Shown here: positions 175 to 11,022 of the stretch, piece by piece | Numbering within the stretch: the first letter of the stretch is position 1 | Layout of the letters: the number at the start of each line of letters is the position of its first letter | Origin: a virus | Length of the DNA stretch: 21,883 nt | Direction: 5' to 3' (one strand) | Virus record (IMG/VR): IMGVR_UViG_3300013119_000239 | Span: 1 to 21,883 of that record | Position numbers and translations under genes: made by a program | The notes under the pieces: generated by a model | Database searches by the model: none | Told to the model about the DNA's origin: nothing | The model's input: only the letters and a program-made list of their open reading frames with translations

Positions 175-546
175 ATGATAACAGAGAAACAAAAAAGAGC
201 TGCTGATAATATAATCCAACAAAAGGCTAAAGGAGATGTTAATCTTAGTAAGGCTTTAACTAAAGCTGGATACTCAAAACAAACTGCTACCAAAGCAGCC
301 AAAGTAGTTGTTAATAGTAAAGGTTTTACAGAATATCTTGCATTACAGGGTTTAACTGAAGAAACCCTAGCTGGATACTTATCAGAGGACTTACATAATA
401 AACCAGGAGAGCGATTAGGAGAAATGAAACTAGCGTCTGAATTATTAGGACTTAAGAAGGATAGTCTTAATGTTAATATATCAAAGGTGGATGAATCATT
501 AGACCTAATTAAAACTCTTATAGATGAAGAAGAAGAAGAAGCTTAG
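175..546 (+). CDS. terS: terminase small subunit
   Basis: This 123-aa protein is the likely DNA-recognition subunit of the packaging motor. The N-terminal half is helical and resembles the helix-turn-helix part of phage small terminases: an ALTKAGYSKQTA segment near residues 26-37 fits the usual 'A...AGYS..TA' signature. A second conserved-looking stretch at about residues 64-92 (LAGYLSEDL, then KLASELLGL) is typical of the oligomerisation part. The tail is very acidic (EEEEE). It lies directly upstream of the large subunit and overlaps it by 23 bases, as terS/terL pairs often do. Its ATG lies about 14 nt after the predicted transcription start and has no Shine-Dalgarno. The call rests on partial motifs plus position. 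Confidence 0.8.
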   Translation: MITEKQKRAADNIIQQKAKGDVNLSKALTKAGYSKQTATKAAKVVVNSKGFTEYLALQGLTEETLAGYLSEDLHNKPGERLGEMKLASELLGLKKDSLNVNISKVDESLDLIKTLIDEEEEEA

Positions 547-2923
547 TGAACTTGCTAAGTTATTTTTATTATATAACCAGGAAACTGGTAAGACAGAACC
601 TGTTAAACTCTCTGAAGGACAAGAAGAGATATTTGATGTAATCCTTAATAGGAAACCCAGTAGGGTTCATGTTATGACGCCAACGCAGTACGGAAAGAAA
701 ATAGGAGATGATATTCCTGTTAGAACTAATACTGGTTGGAAAAATCATGGAGATTTAGAAATAGGAGATATAGTATTTTCACCAGAAGGAAAACAGATAA
801 AGGTTATTGATATACTAAATGATGGAAAAGATATTGACTATGAGATTGAATTTACTAATAGTGAGAAGATTACATGTCATGGACAACATGAATGGATTGT
901 ATTAAATAAAAACTGGAAAACAAATAAATATAGAAAATTAGAAACACAAGAAATAGCAAAACAGAATTATAAGATATTTTCATTACCAAATATAAGTCCA
1001 TTACAATTTAATAAACAAGAATTACCTATAGATCCATATGTACTTGGTTGTTGGTTAGGAGATGGTACAAGTAGTTCTGGGACTATATGTTTTCACGAAA
1101 AAGATTCAGAGCATATAGATAAGATAAATGAATTAGGATATAAGAGCAAAAGTATTTGGGGGAAGACTGAATTAAAGAATACGACCATACTTGGTATAAG
1201 GTCAACAATAAAAGAACTCGGGCTAACGAATAATAAACATATACCAGATATATACAAGAACTCTTCAATAGAACAACGATTAGAATTATTAGCTGGTATA
1301 ATTGATACAGATGGTCATGTTAATAAAGAGATTAGAGAAAATGGATGGAAGAATGGAAGAGTTTATATAGCTAATATAAATAAAAGATTGATAGATGATT
1401 TTGTAGAAGTTATACATTCACTTGGGATGAGAACATCTGTAACTAAAGTAGAGCCAATGTTATCAACATCTGGCATACAAGGAAAAAATGCAACATACTA
1501 TATAGGATTTCAACCATTACAAGATATACCAACAGCAATACCAAGAAAGAAAATAGTAGGGCAAGAAAAGAAAAAAAGAATAAGAATAAGGAACATTAAA
1601 AAAATAAAACCTATAAATGGAAAGTGTATTACTGCAGAAGGAGGAGTTTACTTAGTGGGTAAAACAATGATACCAACTCATAACTCGCATACAGTAGCTA
1701 TGGCTGTTCTTCTAAGAGCTATTACCCATCCAGAGAAATGGGCAGTAGTAGCACCTTCACATCCTAAAGCAATGATTATAATGAGATACATTATTGACCA
1801 TTGTTATGATAATGAGATATTTAGGTCACAGTTAGATATGGATGAAACTGCTAAAGATAGACTTAAGAGAGAAGTATCAAAAACAAGACTAACCTTTAAG
1901 GGTGGTGGTGAGATATTTGTCTTATCAGCTGATAGTAGAAACAAAGCACAAGCAGGTGAAACCCTTATGGGATTCGGTGCTGCTAATATAATATTAGATG
2001 AAAGTTCATTAATAGATGATGACATATATGCAAAAATTAAAAGAATGCTTGGAGGACATAAGGATAACTTTCTTTTGGAGATTGGGAATCCTTTTAAAAG
2101 GAATCACTTTCTTCGTAATTTTCATAGCGATGACTATCATAAGATTACCATTGATTACAAGAGAGCTATTAAAGAGGAAAGACTAACCAAAGAATTTGTA
2201 GAAGAGATGAGAAAGGAAGCTTTCTTTGATATATTATATGAGTGTAAATTTCCTAAACAGGATATGCTTGATTCAGATGGTTGGACAGTACTATTATCGG
2301 AAGACGATATTACTAATGCTTTCTTACCTGATAACCCGAATACTTATGGTGAAGTACGCTTAGGTGTTGATGTAGCAAGAAGTGGTGGAAACTTTAATGT
2401 ATGGGTATTGAGAACAGGTAACTTCGCTCAAGTACTTGGTAAGAGTACAACAGATAATTTAATGGATGTTATAGGTACTACCAAAGACTTTGCAGAGAAG
2501 TTTGATGTAGCCGAAGAGAATATCTTTATAGATGCTACAGGTTTAGGAGCAGGAGTATCAGATAGGTTTGTAGAATCAGGATGGAATGTATCAGGTATCA
2601 ATATGGCACAGAAAGCTATAGAACAAGACAAGTATATTAATATAAGAGCAGAAGCATATATACGAGCAAGGAATTGGATCAAAGCAGGAGGACAATTAAA
2701 AAAGGATTCAGATTTCTTACAACTAATAGATATGAAATACAAGGTTCGCTCTAATGGTAAAATTAAAATCATTGACAAAGAAACCTTAAGGAAGAGTGGT
2801 ATTCCATCTCCAGATGTAGCTGATGCATTTATGCTTACATTCTGCAGACCAGAAGAAACATTCTCATTTATGAAAAAAAGACAAATAATATATAATAAAA
2901 TTAAACAACCAGTTTACGAATAA
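524..2923 (+). CDS. terL: terminase large subunit precursor, interrupted by an intein
   Basis: This is the ATPase and nuclease of the DNA-packaging motor. The 799-aa precursor would splice to a mature protein of about 470 aa, a normal TerL size. The extein reads TPTQYGK (52-58), then SHTVAMAVLL from residue 388; joined, they give an intact Walker A (GKS). Walker B is IILDES (D492, E493), followed by a coupling motif LEIGNP (518-523). The RNase H-like nuclease shows three acidic sites: D616 in RLGVDVAR, D670 in IFIDATG and D764/D767 in PSPDVADA. Because the insert splits Walker A, the unspliced precursor cannot be an active ATPase. The ATG lies inside the end of the small-subunit gene and has no clear ribosome site, so translation is probably coupled. 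The portal gene follows 4 nt after the stop. Confidence 0.95.
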   Translation: MKKKKKLSELAKLFLLYNQETGKTEPVKLSEGQEEIFDVILNRKPSRVHVMTPTQYGKKIGDDIPVRTNTGWKNHGDLEIGDIVFSPEGKQIKVIDILNDGKDIDYEIEFTNSEKITCHGQHEWIVLNKNWKTNKYRKLETQEIAKQNYKIFSLPNISPLQFNKQELPIDPYVLGCWLGDGTSSSGTICFHEKDSEHIDKINELGYKSKSIWGKTELKNTTILGIRSTIKELGLTNNKHIPDIYKNSSIEQRLELLAGIIDTDGHVNKEIRENGWKNGRVYIANINKRLIDDFVEVIHSLGMRTSVTKVEPMLSTSGIQGKNATYYIGFQPLQDIPTAIPRKKIVGQEKKKRIRIRNIKKIKPINGKCITAEGGVYLVGKTMIPTHNSHTVAMAVLLRAITHPEKWAVVAPSHPKAMIIMRYIIDHCYDNEIFRSQLDMDETAKDRLKREVSKTRLTFKGGGEIFVLSADSRNKAQAGETLMGFGAANIILDESSLIDDDIYAKIKRMLGGHKDNFLLEIGNPFKRNHFLRNFHSDDYHKITIDYKRAIKEERLTKEFVEEMRKEAFFDILYECKFPKQDMLDSDGWTVLLSEDDITNAFLPDNPNTYGEVRLGVDVARSGGNFNVWVLRTGNFAQVLGKSTTDNLMDVIGTTKDFAEKFDVAEENIFIDATGLGAGVSDRFVESGWNVSGINMAQKAIEQDKYINIRAEAYIRARNWIKAGGQLKKDSDFLQLIDMKYKVRSNGKIKIIDKETLRKSGIPSPDVADAFMLTFCRPEETFSFMKKRQIIYNKIKQPVYE
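698..1684 (+). mobile_element. class 3-type intein with LAGLIDADG homing endonuclease, inside TerL
   Basis: Residues 59-387 (329 aa) form an in-frame intein. Block A begins KIGDDIPVRTNTGW, so residue 1 is Lys, not Cys, Ser or Ala. Block B has QHEW (121-124), with B:10 His122 and B:12 Trp124. Block F has GKCIT with Cys368. The C-end reads MIPTHN then S388: Thr385, His386, Asn387, Ser+1. Trp124, Cys368 and Thr385 form the W-C-T triplet of class 3 inteins, which use the block F Cys instead of residue 1 as first nucleophile. Between the splicing blocks are two LAGLIDADG motifs, VLGCWLGDG (173-181, catalytic D180) and LAGIIDTDG (256-264, catalytic D263), both intact. The intein thus looks able to splice and to home. 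The exact left boundary rests on restoring GKS; either of two adjacent Lys codons could be cut without changing the spliced product. Confidence 0.92.
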
Positions 2924-2927
2924 AAAT

Positions 2928-4682
2928 ATGAAAGATGAAAAGACAATCTTTTCCCAACTACAAGAAGCATTAAAAGATTATGAAGAAAAAGTAGAGATTA
3001 CTGATGGATATAAGTTTGATATGGACGACACGATAAACAAGATAGAGTTATATCGTGCATCTAAGTTCAAATCAGGCGATAAAGATTCACAAGGTAATAA
3101 GAAATACTTTTTTAATATCATTAATCCACAATGTGGACACGCTACAAAGAATATTGACCTAGACAGGAAAGATATTCGTGTTCGTGCTGTAGAAGGAAAA
3201 GATAGAATCAAAGCTATGATTTATTCTGCTGAATTGAAGTATTGGATGAGAAGAGAAAATACAGGGGTACTTTTAAATAAGGTTTCTGAGAACTTACCAA
3301 TATATGGTTCAGTAGTATTAAAAAAAGTGGGTGATAAAATTAAACATATTCCTTTAAGGTATTTAAAGTTTGACCCAGCTGTATCAAGTAAGGAAGACTC
3401 ATTTGATTTACAATCATCTTATGTGATAGAAGAACATCATCTTCAACCTGCTGAATTATTAAAAATGAAAGCGTGGGATTCTGATGCTATTACAGAAACA
3501 ATTAAAAAATTCAGAGAGAGTAAAGAAAAGGATATTACTATCTATGAATACTATGCTGAATTCCCGAATAAAGAACTTGGCATTAAGGGTAATGGATACT
3601 CCTTGGGGGTATGTATGATAGCTGTGTGTGATTCTGATAAACACGCTTATGAAGAAGTTTTATACAAAGAAAAGCTAGATAAGTTTCCTTATAAGAAAGT
3701 TGATTATCTAAGAATAGAAGGAAGAGCATTGGGACTAGGTATAGTTGAAATGTTGATGGATGCTCAACAAAGATGGAACGAGATGGCTAATCAAAAAGCT
3801 ACCTCAATGAAACTTTCATCAAAGCACTTATTCCAAACCCGTGATACAACCGTAGAGTCTAACATAATGACAGACTTACTTAATGGAGATATTATAAAAG
3901 TTAATTCAGAGATTACACCTATTGCTAATGAAGAAAGAAACCTTGCTGCTTACAGACAAGAAGAAGCTAACCTATTACATGTTATTAGAAGTTTAGCTAA
4001 TGCATTTGAAGTTGTTACAGGTGAGTCATTACCAAGCAGAACTCCATTTAGATTAGGAGCTATGATGCAACAAAATGCTGGTAAGCTATTTGACTTTATT
4101 AGAGAGAACTTAGGTATGTTCTTAGAGGAAACATTTAAAGAATGGATACTACCACAGTTTGAAGCAGAGATAGTTAAAGAACATATATTTGAATTATTTG
4201 ATCACGACACAATACAACTAATAGTAGAAAAAGATATTAATCGTAGATTAAATGAAGCTATTAAAAGATATGTTTTATCTGAAGGAGATTATCCAAAGAA
4301 AGAAGAAGTTGATATATTAAGGGAACAATTAACATCACAAACAGAAGATACTCAATTTATTAAAATAGTTAAGGGTTATCTAGATTTTGAAAAGACTATT
4401 GATATAGATATTACAGGAGAAAAAACTAATGCAGCTGCTGAGATAGAAACTATCTCTAATCTATTACAGTTATTAGCTCAAAATCCACAGATACAACAAA
4501 ATCCAGATTTAATGAAGCTATTAAGAGCATTGGCAGATAGAAGTGGTGTTTCACCAAATCTATTACCCAATGAACAGGGTGGCGAAGTACAACCCTCATT
4601 AGGAGAATTAGCAAGTCCTGCTGGAACACCAGGTATGCCAGGAGTACCAGGAATGCCAGGACAAGTACCATTAGCAAAATAA
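2928..4682 (+). CDS. portal protein
   Basis: At 584 aa, directly after terL and before scaffold and coat, this is the expected portal, the dodecameric ring through which DNA is packaged. It is mostly mixed alpha/beta. The region around residues 115-150 (LPIYGSVVLKKV, then HIPLRYLKFDP) matches the usual portal pattern of a strand pair followed by a 'l.p..l..dp' segment. A long helical C-terminal half carries QQRWNEMANQKATS (near 275-290) and the later helices typical of the portal stem and wing. The last 25 residues are Gly/Pro-rich with collagen-like steps (GMPGVPGMPG). No SD; ATG follows 4 nt after the terL stop. Assignment is by size, position and fold pattern. Confidence 0.85.
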   Translation: MKDEKTIFSQLQEALKDYEEKVEITDGYKFDMDDTINKIELYRASKFKSGDKDSQGNKKYFFNIINPQCGHATKNIDLDRKDIRVRAVEGKDRIKAMIYSAELKYWMRRENTGVLLNKVSENLPIYGSVVLKKVGDKIKHIPLRYLKFDPAVSSKEDSFDLQSSYVIEEHHLQPAELLKMKAWDSDAITETIKKFRESKEKDITIYEYYAEFPNKELGIKGNGYSLGVCMIAVCDSDKHAYEEVLYKEKLDKFPYKKVDYLRIEGRALGLGIVEMLMDAQQRWNEMANQKATSMKLSSKHLFQTRDTTVESNIMTDLLNGDIIKVNSEITPIANEERNLAAYRQEEANLLHVIRSLANAFEVVTGESLPSRTPFRLGAMMQQNAGKLFDFIRENLGMFLEETFKEWILPQFEAEIVKEHIFELFDHDTIQLIVEKDINRRLNEAIKRYVLSEGDYPKKEEVDILREQLTSQTEDTQFIKIVKGYLDFEKTIDIDITGEKTNAAAEIETISNLLQLLAQNPQIQQNPDLMKLLRALADRSGVSPNLLPNEQGGEVQPSLGELASPAGTPGMPGVPGMPGQVPLAK

Positions 4683-6660: not shown

Positions 6661-7737
6661 ATGAATAAAATATATTTCATATCTTCTGCTTATAAGGGGT
6701 GTAGTTATGTAAGATGTTTACTACCAACATTACATGGTGGATACAATGGTTCTGTAACATCTTTATATAGTGACTTGAAAGATCACAAAACAATACTATC
6801 AGAATTAATGAGTTCAGATCTTATAATCTTTCATAGACCACAATCCATTGATGCTCATAAAGTTGCAATAGAATTAAAGAGACAAGGAAAAAAGATAATA
6901 TTTGATAATGACGATACATTTAAATTAGAAAAAGGTAATCCGTTTTACACAAAAAAAGTTTATGGTAAGTATTGTAATGTTGAAAAACATAGCAGGTTAA
7001 TGGATAACTTTATTAGAAGCGCAGATGCAGCATTAACAACAACAGAGTTCCTTGCAAAAGAATATAGAAAGATTAATAAACAGGTATTTGTTCTTCCTAA
7101 TTGTGTTGATAAAGATGATTGGTCAGAGCCAAAAAGAAATGAAGAAGAAAAGATTAGAATTGCTTTAGTGGGCTCAGTAACATATTCAAAAGATTTTGAA
7201 CATATTAAAGATATTATTAAAAAGTTAGACAAAAGAGATGATATACAATTTGTAATATTCGGACTTGATGATAAGAAACATAGGGGAAAGAATAAATTAG
7301 TAGAAAAAATATATAAAGATGAATATAAGTTTTGGGATAATTTAAAGAATCTAGAACATGTACCCTGGTCTAAGATGGAAGATTACTTTGATACATTAAA
7401 TGAGTTAAGATTAGACATAATGTTAATACCAAGAGCAGAAAATTACTTTAATAAATGTAAGTCAAATATAAAGTTCTTAGAAGCATCTATGTGTGAGATA
7501 CCAGTAATAGCTCAAGGATTTACAGATGATAATTCACCTTATGATAAAGATATAAATGGAAAGAATGGAATTTTAATAAAAGATAATTCTAAATGGGAAG
7601 AAGAAATAGAGCGATTGATAAAAGATAAAAAACTTAGAAGAGCGATTGGTAAAGAAGCAAAGCGATATACACTAGAACATTATGATATAAAAAATAATGT
7701 TTATAGGTGGGAAGAAGCATTTAATCAAATAACATAA
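6661..7737 (+). CDS. glycosyltransferase, GT-B fold (GT4-like)
   Basis: A 358-aa protein likely to transfer a sugar from a nucleotide-sugar donor. The N-terminal half has SSDLIIFHRP (51-60), then GKKIIFDNDD (76-85), the 'aDvivfqRp ... Gk.iifD.DD' pattern of a common phage and bacterial GT-B group. The C-terminal Rossmann half starts at RIALVGSVTYSKD (166-178) and carries NIKFLEASMCEIPVIA (269-284), equivalent to the donor-binding 'E.......P.i' region. It ends with the usual helical tail. No signal peptide or membrane helix is visible, so it would act in the cytoplasm. It sits among head and fibre genes, which makes virion proteins or a host surface glycan precursor candidate acceptors (inference). 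The acceptor and sugar cannot be read from sequence. Confidence 0.85.
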   Translation: MNKIYFISSAYKGCSYVRCLLPTLHGGYNGSVTSLYSDLKDHKTILSELMSSDLIIFHRPQSIDAHKVAIELKRQGKKIIFDNDDTFKLEKGNPFYTKKVYGKYCNVEKHSRLMDNFIRSADAALTTTEFLAKEYRKINKQVFVLPNCVDKDDWSEPKRNEEEKIRIALVGSVTYSKDFEHIKDIIKKLDKRDDIQFVIFGLDDKKHRGKNKLVEKIYKDEYKFWDNLKNLEHVPWSKMEDYFDTLNELRLDIMLIPRAENYFNKCKSNIKFLEASMCEIPVIAQGFTDDNSPYDKDINGKNGILIKDNSKWEEEIERLIKDKKLRRAIGKEAKRYTLEHYDIKNNVYRWEEAFNQIT

Positions 7738-10642: not shown

Positions 10643-10810
10643 ATGGATATCACAACAGAATAACTCGTAAGTCTTTTAGTTGCTAAAGACTTAGAGATTA
10701 AAACACTTCAAGAACGGGTTAAGTGGTTGGAACATCTTTTAGATTTAGAAGATGAAGAATTACCACCTGAACCAAAAAAAAGACCCATTGGGTTTTGTAA
10801 GGAGGAGTGA
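10643..10810 (+). pseudogene. ochre-interrupted small coiled-coil gene
   Basis: An ATG at 10643, preceded by an SD-like AGAGG (10632-10636), reads MDITTE and then meets TAA at 10661-10663. The same frame continues for 48 further codons (LVSLLVAKDLEIKTLQERV... ending GFCKEE) to a TGA at 10808-10810. The second part is a good leucine-zipper-like helix with an acidic/Pro end, unlike chance sequence. Its TGA overlaps the next ATG (TGATG), as in a coupled operon. Restoring codon 7 to CAA (Gln) by one C/T change gives a smooth 55-residue protein. Nonsense mutation, sequencing error and stop suppression are the options; other genes here end at TAA, so global recoding is unlikely. Confidence 0.6.
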
Positions 10811-11022
10811 TGAAAGAAAAGCGTTGTCCAAAGTGTCATCAAAAAAGATACCTAACAAAACATCATATTTTACCTATAAGAATGTTTGGTAAAAATGACC
10901 AAGTTATATATCTTTGTAGACGATGCCACGATGCTATTGAGAGGTTTATACCACTCAGCAAAAAGTTAACAAAAGAAGCATATTACAGAATTGTAATTGC
11001 TTTCATCAACGGAGGAGGTTAG
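10810..11022 (+). CDS. small HNH endonuclease-like zinc protein
   Basis: A 70-aa protein started at the ATG at 10810; a GTG at 10807 in the same frame is an alternative. A strong SD, AAGGAGG (10799-10805), is 4 nt upstream. It has CPKC (C6, C9), THE central KHHILP (H18, H19) and LCRRCH (C36, C39, H40): the zinc-bound ββα-metal layout of HNH nucleases ('C..C...HHi.P....LC..CH'). It is near the minimum size for the fold. HNH proteins in phages act as homing nucleases, packaging partners or recombination enzymes; which applies is not readable here. It lies between the interrupted mini-gene and the phosphoesterase in an SD-bearing group. Confidence 0.75.
   Translation: MKEKRCPKCHQKRYLTKHHILPIRMFGKNDQVIYLCRRCHDAIERFIPLSKKLTKEAYYRIVIAFINGGG

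Follow-up and report, generated by a model that had tools for sequence, protein, structure and literature searches.

The locus studied here raises the question of what interrupts the Walker A motif (P-loop) of a phage large terminase (TerL), and whether the interruption is of a kind that could remove itself from the protein. The window, that is, the whole stretch of DNA analysed, is a single 21.9-kb virus record. A sequence-only reading had proposed that a class 3 intein, with Lys rather than a nucleophile at its first position, splits the motif. Exact empty sites, signature residues, alignment with solved inteins, a tree and a structural model all bear this proposal out, and we put the probability that the insert is a LAGLIDADG-bearing class 3 intein in the Walker A motif of a tailed-phage large terminase at about 93%.

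The interrupted gene and its empty sites

The host gene encodes a tailed-phage large terminase; PHROG terminase families match both the window protein and an intein-free relative, L003. It is preceded by a small-terminase-like gene (a weak Terminase_2 match), while on its other side a portal/adaptor-type gene and, further downstream, major head proteins complete a packaging cluster. The assignment to TerL thus combines the family match, the packaging cluster and a Walker A motif that is restored when the insert is removed. Elsewhere in the window, the major head protein gene is closely followed by a glycosyltransferase gene (6661-7737; PHROG 7162), and an exonuclease-like gene is immediately preceded by a 71-aa HNH endonuclease-like ORF with a GTG start (10807-11022) that may represent a free-standing mobile endonuclease. 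Coordinates of the features discussed below are given in Table 1.

Table 1. Features of the interrupted terminase gene (window coordinates) and the evidence for each.
Feature	Position	Strand	Evidence
TerL ORF, 799 aa	524-2923	+	translation; PHROG terminase families
TerL N-extein, residues 1-58, last residues TPTQYGK	524..697	+	translation; unbroken with C-extein in intein-free L003, L004
329-residue class 3 intein carrying a LAGLIDADG endonuclease	698..1684	+	exact empty sites; signature residues; profile match to class 3 structures; model
Lys1 of the intein, a position without catalytic role in class 3	698..700	+	empty site; variable among relatives
Block B His64 (B:10)	887..889	+	invariant in 236 distinct relatives, among matches listed
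Block B Trp66 (B:12), W of WCT	893..895	+	translation; class 3 structure alignment; relatives
First LAGLIDADG motif, YVLGCWLGDG, with Asp122	1037..1066	+	translation; nine-intein alignment
Second LAGLIDADG motif, LLAGIIDTDG, with Asp205	1286..1315	+	translation; nine-intein alignment; PF14528, PF05204 above cut-off
Cys310 of block F (F:4), assigned by homology as first nucleophile	1625..1627	+	translation; class 3 structure alignment; relatives
Block G end, Thr327-His328-Asn329	1676..1684	+	translation; class 3 structure alignment; relatives
TerL C-extein, first residue Ser+1 (nt 1685-1687)	1685..2920	+	translation; L003/L004 empty sites; PHROG terminase families

The insert comprises TerL residues 59-387 (987 nt), is in frame and splits Walker A between its Lys and Ser; the junction, TPTQYGK/K...THN/SHTVAM (slashes here and below mark insertion points), was checked on the window translation. 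We then used the whole window protein as the query in a scan of viral contigs, which yielded two intein-free relatives. The TerL segments on the two sides of the site are 96.6% and 94.8% identical to the window's in L003 (95-97%) and 78% and 89% identical in L004, with the insert absent from both, and in both proteins TPTQYGKSHTVAM reads unbroken, so that exactly the insert is missing. At the DNA level, CAGTACGGAAAG is followed in L003 directly by TCGCATACAGTAGCTATGGC, which are the window sequences immediately before and after the insert, with neither gap nor scar; L004 shows only point changes at its empty site. Identity between the window and L003 is about 92-98% over several hundred bases on either side. 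These exact empty sites imply that the insert is exactly 987 nt long, that its first residue is Lys and that its removal restores GKS, as the earlier reading had it, and they place neither Cys nor Ser at residue 1. Moving the boundary by one Lys would leave an extein reading ...YGS instead of ...YGKS, and ...YGS occurs in no relative. A further contig, L002 (IMGVR_UViG_3300013118_000151), matches the window at 100% identity across the part of TerL common to both, and its edge (position 1) falls inside the intein at TerL residue 328, perhaps through an assembly break.

Class 3 signature, fold and relatives

All ten key residues (K59, H122, W124, D180, D263, C368, T385, H386, N387 and S388) were located in the translation; in intein numbering they are Lys1, His64, Trp66, Asp122, Asp205, Cys310, Thr327, His328, Asn329 and Ser+1. 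Residue 1, as set by the empty site, is not Cys, Ser or Thr, and the W-C-T triplet characteristic of class 3 (Trp B:12, Cys F:4, Thr G:5) is present as Trp66, Cys310 and Thr327, in register with the solved class 3 inteins 6rix and 6bs8. The structure paper for 6rix describes a protease-like triad made up of the counterparts Cys124, His65 and Thr143 (PMC7664689).

When nine phage inteins from comparable sites are aligned over their full length, 30 columns are invariant, among them His64, Trp66, Asp122, Asp205, Cys310, Thr327, His328 and Asn329. When the profile of these nine was searched against the PDB, class 3 inteins came out on top (6rix, 107 bits; 6riy, 104; 6bs8, 102), with both splicing halves aligned and the His, Trp, Cys F:4 and THN end in register, whereas the native class 1 gp41-1 intein scored 55 bits, about half as much; PI-SceI was matched in its endonuclease part. 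The AlphaFold model of the intein has a mean pLDDT of 93.8 and a pTM of 0.92. In the Foldseek ranking, PI-SceI entries lead (E 5e-21 to 7e-17), other intein endonucleases come next, and the class 3 splicing domains of MchDnaB1 and MsmDnaB1 follow, with TM 0.77-0.78 on their chain length; the rmsd to these is large because the query carries an inserted endonuclease. Both-half profile alignment, model and structural search together reveal intein blocks A, B, F and G and an intein/HINT fold. The general Pfam splicing profile PF14890 remained below its cut-off on the insert (16.1 versus 35.8 bits), and a search of NCBIfam returned a weak match alone, to the endonuclease part of another intein.

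Among the matches listed, 236 distinct relatives (less than 90% alike) have invariant His64, Trp66, Thr327 and Asn329, the invariance of Trp66 being partly selected, as some scans used a pattern around it; position 310 holds Cys in 230 of them and Ser in the other six. This conservation rules out a chance WCT match. A scan with endonuclease-domain patterns only, covering 600 candidate stretches, gave at least 561 confirmed relatives, and 822 phage records match some part of the window protein. In the tree, the window intein belongs, with support of 100, to a clade of 59 inteins that come mostly from phage P-loops. Its sister (support 99) is the intein of L014 (IMGVR_UViG_3300020044_009569), the closest full-length relative among the matches listed (52% identical), which occupies the same kind of site (TQYGK/SETIAM) but has Leu at residue 1.

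Several known systems resemble this one. The terminase inteins of Porphyromonas phage005 and Bacteroides phage B124-14 (L006, L007) share the P-loop site, the length (327-329 aa) and the signature at 44% and 41% identity, respectively, but begin with Gln or Glu and lie in terminases unlike the window's. The class 3 DnaB1 inteins of Mycobacterium smegmatis and M. chimaera (6bs8, 6rix) have the same WCT, block B His, THN end and splicing fold and are likewise inserted in a P-loop after Gly-Lys and before Ser; they differ in being mini-inteins without an endonuclease, in residing in a helicase and, for 6bs8, in having Ala at residue 1. In mycobacteriophages, according to one study, terminase is the most frequent intein host and the 'classic' insertion lies between the P-loop Lys and Thr; the P-loop inteins (TerL1-a and neighbours) sit, like the window's, between the Walker A Lys and the next Ser/Thr, and these phage inteins carry LAGLIDADG endonucleases and include some of class 3, although the terminase examples named there as class 3 are at sites c, d and e and not at the P-loop (PMC5050341). 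Their hosts infect mycobacteria and are only distantly related to the window phage. A published survey lists 1701 class 3 inteins and gives 82.5% as the share with LAGLIDADG motifs (PMC7891396). A literature search turned up no paper that combines inteins, the terminase large subunit and class 3. Both class 3 inteins and terminase P-loop inteins have already been described in the literature, and class 3 inteins at the terminase P-loop site are common.

Three other accounts of the insert were weighed. It might be a relic within the terminase gene, a class 3 intein so decayed that it is inert or capable of cleavage alone. Such inactivity has a precedent in the class 3-type Arth_1007, part of a prophage remnant, but there both the F:4 Cys and the B:10 His are missing (PMC3196547). 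The window intein keeps every catalytic residue and both endonuclease acids, and the reading frame runs without a stop through the whole terminase, a protein that should be essential. We consider decay very unlikely. Class 1 comprises the majority of known inteins, and a misplaced boundary might hide a class 1 intein with a true residue-1 nucleophile, or a class 2 intein in which the +1 residue attacks directly. This is highly improbable: the empty sites leave no freedom in placing the boundary, no Cys, Ser or Thr occurs among residues 1-9 (KIGDDIPVR), the WCT is complete and the best solved matches are of class 3; the nine-intein alignment and the empty-site DNA rule out a shifted boundary. 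That the segment is an ordinary domain of this terminase lineage has a continuous reading frame in its favour, but its probability is close to nil, as the insert is exactly and scarlessly missing from L003 and L004, which refutes it, and the same element is present in unrelated proteins elsewhere.

Endonuclease, proposed splicing path and packaging

The insert scores above the cut-offs of Pfam LAGLIDADG_3 and Hom_end (PF14528, PF05204), and both LAGLIDADG acids named in the earlier reading, D180 and D263, are confirmed by translation and alignment as the catalytic Asp122 and Asp205 of two motifs. Its GC content is 29% against 34% for the host gene (16% against 25% at third positions), an AT-richness that would fit a recent arrival, though it is no proof of mobility. 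Homing of the window intein is likely, given the two retained catalytic Asp, the existence of near-identical terminases that lack the intein, and this difference in base composition. The endonuclease is predicted to cut intein-free TerL alleles of the L003 type around GGAAAG/TCGCAT and so to spread the intein. The intein-bearing window and intein-free L003 form a clean natural pair, useful for homing tests.

From the known class 3 mechanism, the residues present and the fold, we infer how splicing would proceed. Cys310, with His64 and Thr327 as a protease-like triad, would attack the bond between extein Lys58 and intein Lys1, so that the N-extein is carried on Cys310 as a thioester; the N-extein would then pass to Ser+1; cyclization of Asn329, assisted by His328, would free the intein; and the remaining ester would convert to a peptide bond, yielding TPTQYGKSHTVAM with a complete Walker A motif. 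This four-step path is the accepted one for class 3 inteins. Splicing would gate packaging only insofar as the unspliced P-loop should not bind ATP.

Variation at residue 1 and at the block F nucleophile

The sequence-only reading had named Lys at position 1 in its description of the intein. The empty site confirms the residue; comparison with relatives shows that it is not a distinguishing feature. We compared 140 unique inteins at sites between GK and S or T, from scans of viral contigs and bacterial genomes; among the matches listed, residue 1 is Ala in 71, Leu in 29, Gln in 15, Glu in 10, Arg in four, Met in three, Lys, Asp and Gly in two each, and Asn and Pro in one each. Besides the window's, the P-loop inteins with Lys1 among the matches listed are L096 and L123; both lie on branches separate from the window in the tree, so that the Lys1 inteins need at least two origins. 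Free variation of residue 1 is expected under the class 3 mechanism, in which no nucleophilic chemistry takes place at that position. The residue can matter for geometry, since A1G abolished splicing in the class 3 AceL NrdHF intein (PMC7891396), and an effect of Lys1 on the rate of splicing is possible. It is very unlikely, on the other hand, that Lys1, whose neighbour at -1 is the Walker A Lys, adjusts the N-terminal bond so as to make splicing conditional and thereby time DNA packaging. Two inteins, L085 (2501-3505) and L221 (5001-6032), combine the full WCT triplet with Cys at residue 1, and the nearest tree neighbours of L085, at the same site, have Ala1; these could be class 1/class 3 intermediates or may reflect neutral changes.

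The six relatives with Ser at position 310, W-S-T rather than W-C-T, are in viral contigs at the terminase P-loop: L107 (224-1231), L024 (2501-3505), L111 (2489-3523), L244 (1163-2164), L246 (2001-2987) and L287 (1366-2367). With every remaining catalytic and endonuclease residue preserved, they do not look decayed. Thr is found at +1 in all six but in only 56 of the 230 Cys forms among the matches listed, an association between related sequences that are not independent and to which one scan seeded with Ser forms contributed. Residue 1 is not a nucleophile in four of the six; in the other two, L244 and L287, it is Ser, and these two might splice by the class 1 route. L024 and L107 are sisters in the tree and L111 lies apart, a placement that does not strictly rule out a single origin. 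In AceL NrdHF, splicing was lost when the Cys was replaced by Ser; the survey in the same work defined class 3 by the Cys, so that Ser forms would be missing from its count (PMC7891396). The Ser forms are possibly an oxygen-ester variant of the class 3 mechanism.

A homologous terminase in another contig, L005 (IMGVR_UViG_3300022868_000194; 1357-3771), has an intein-free P-loop and is interrupted near Walker B. An N-half starting CILAGYKV after MGFG, an HNH-like ORF in another frame and a C-half ending ILVHN/SSNVVIDESS resemble the parts of a class 1-type intein that is naturally split and encloses an HNH gene.

The intein-bearing TerL in itself matters little, being one more class 3 phage intein at a favoured terminase site; the survey and the Ser forms matter more. 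The survey shows little constraint on residue 1 of P-loop class 3 inteins. The Ser-for-Cys relatives, at a position where the block F Cys is supposedly obligate, make an oxygen-ester class 3 path testable with natural sequences, and their value may extend beyond the find in this window.
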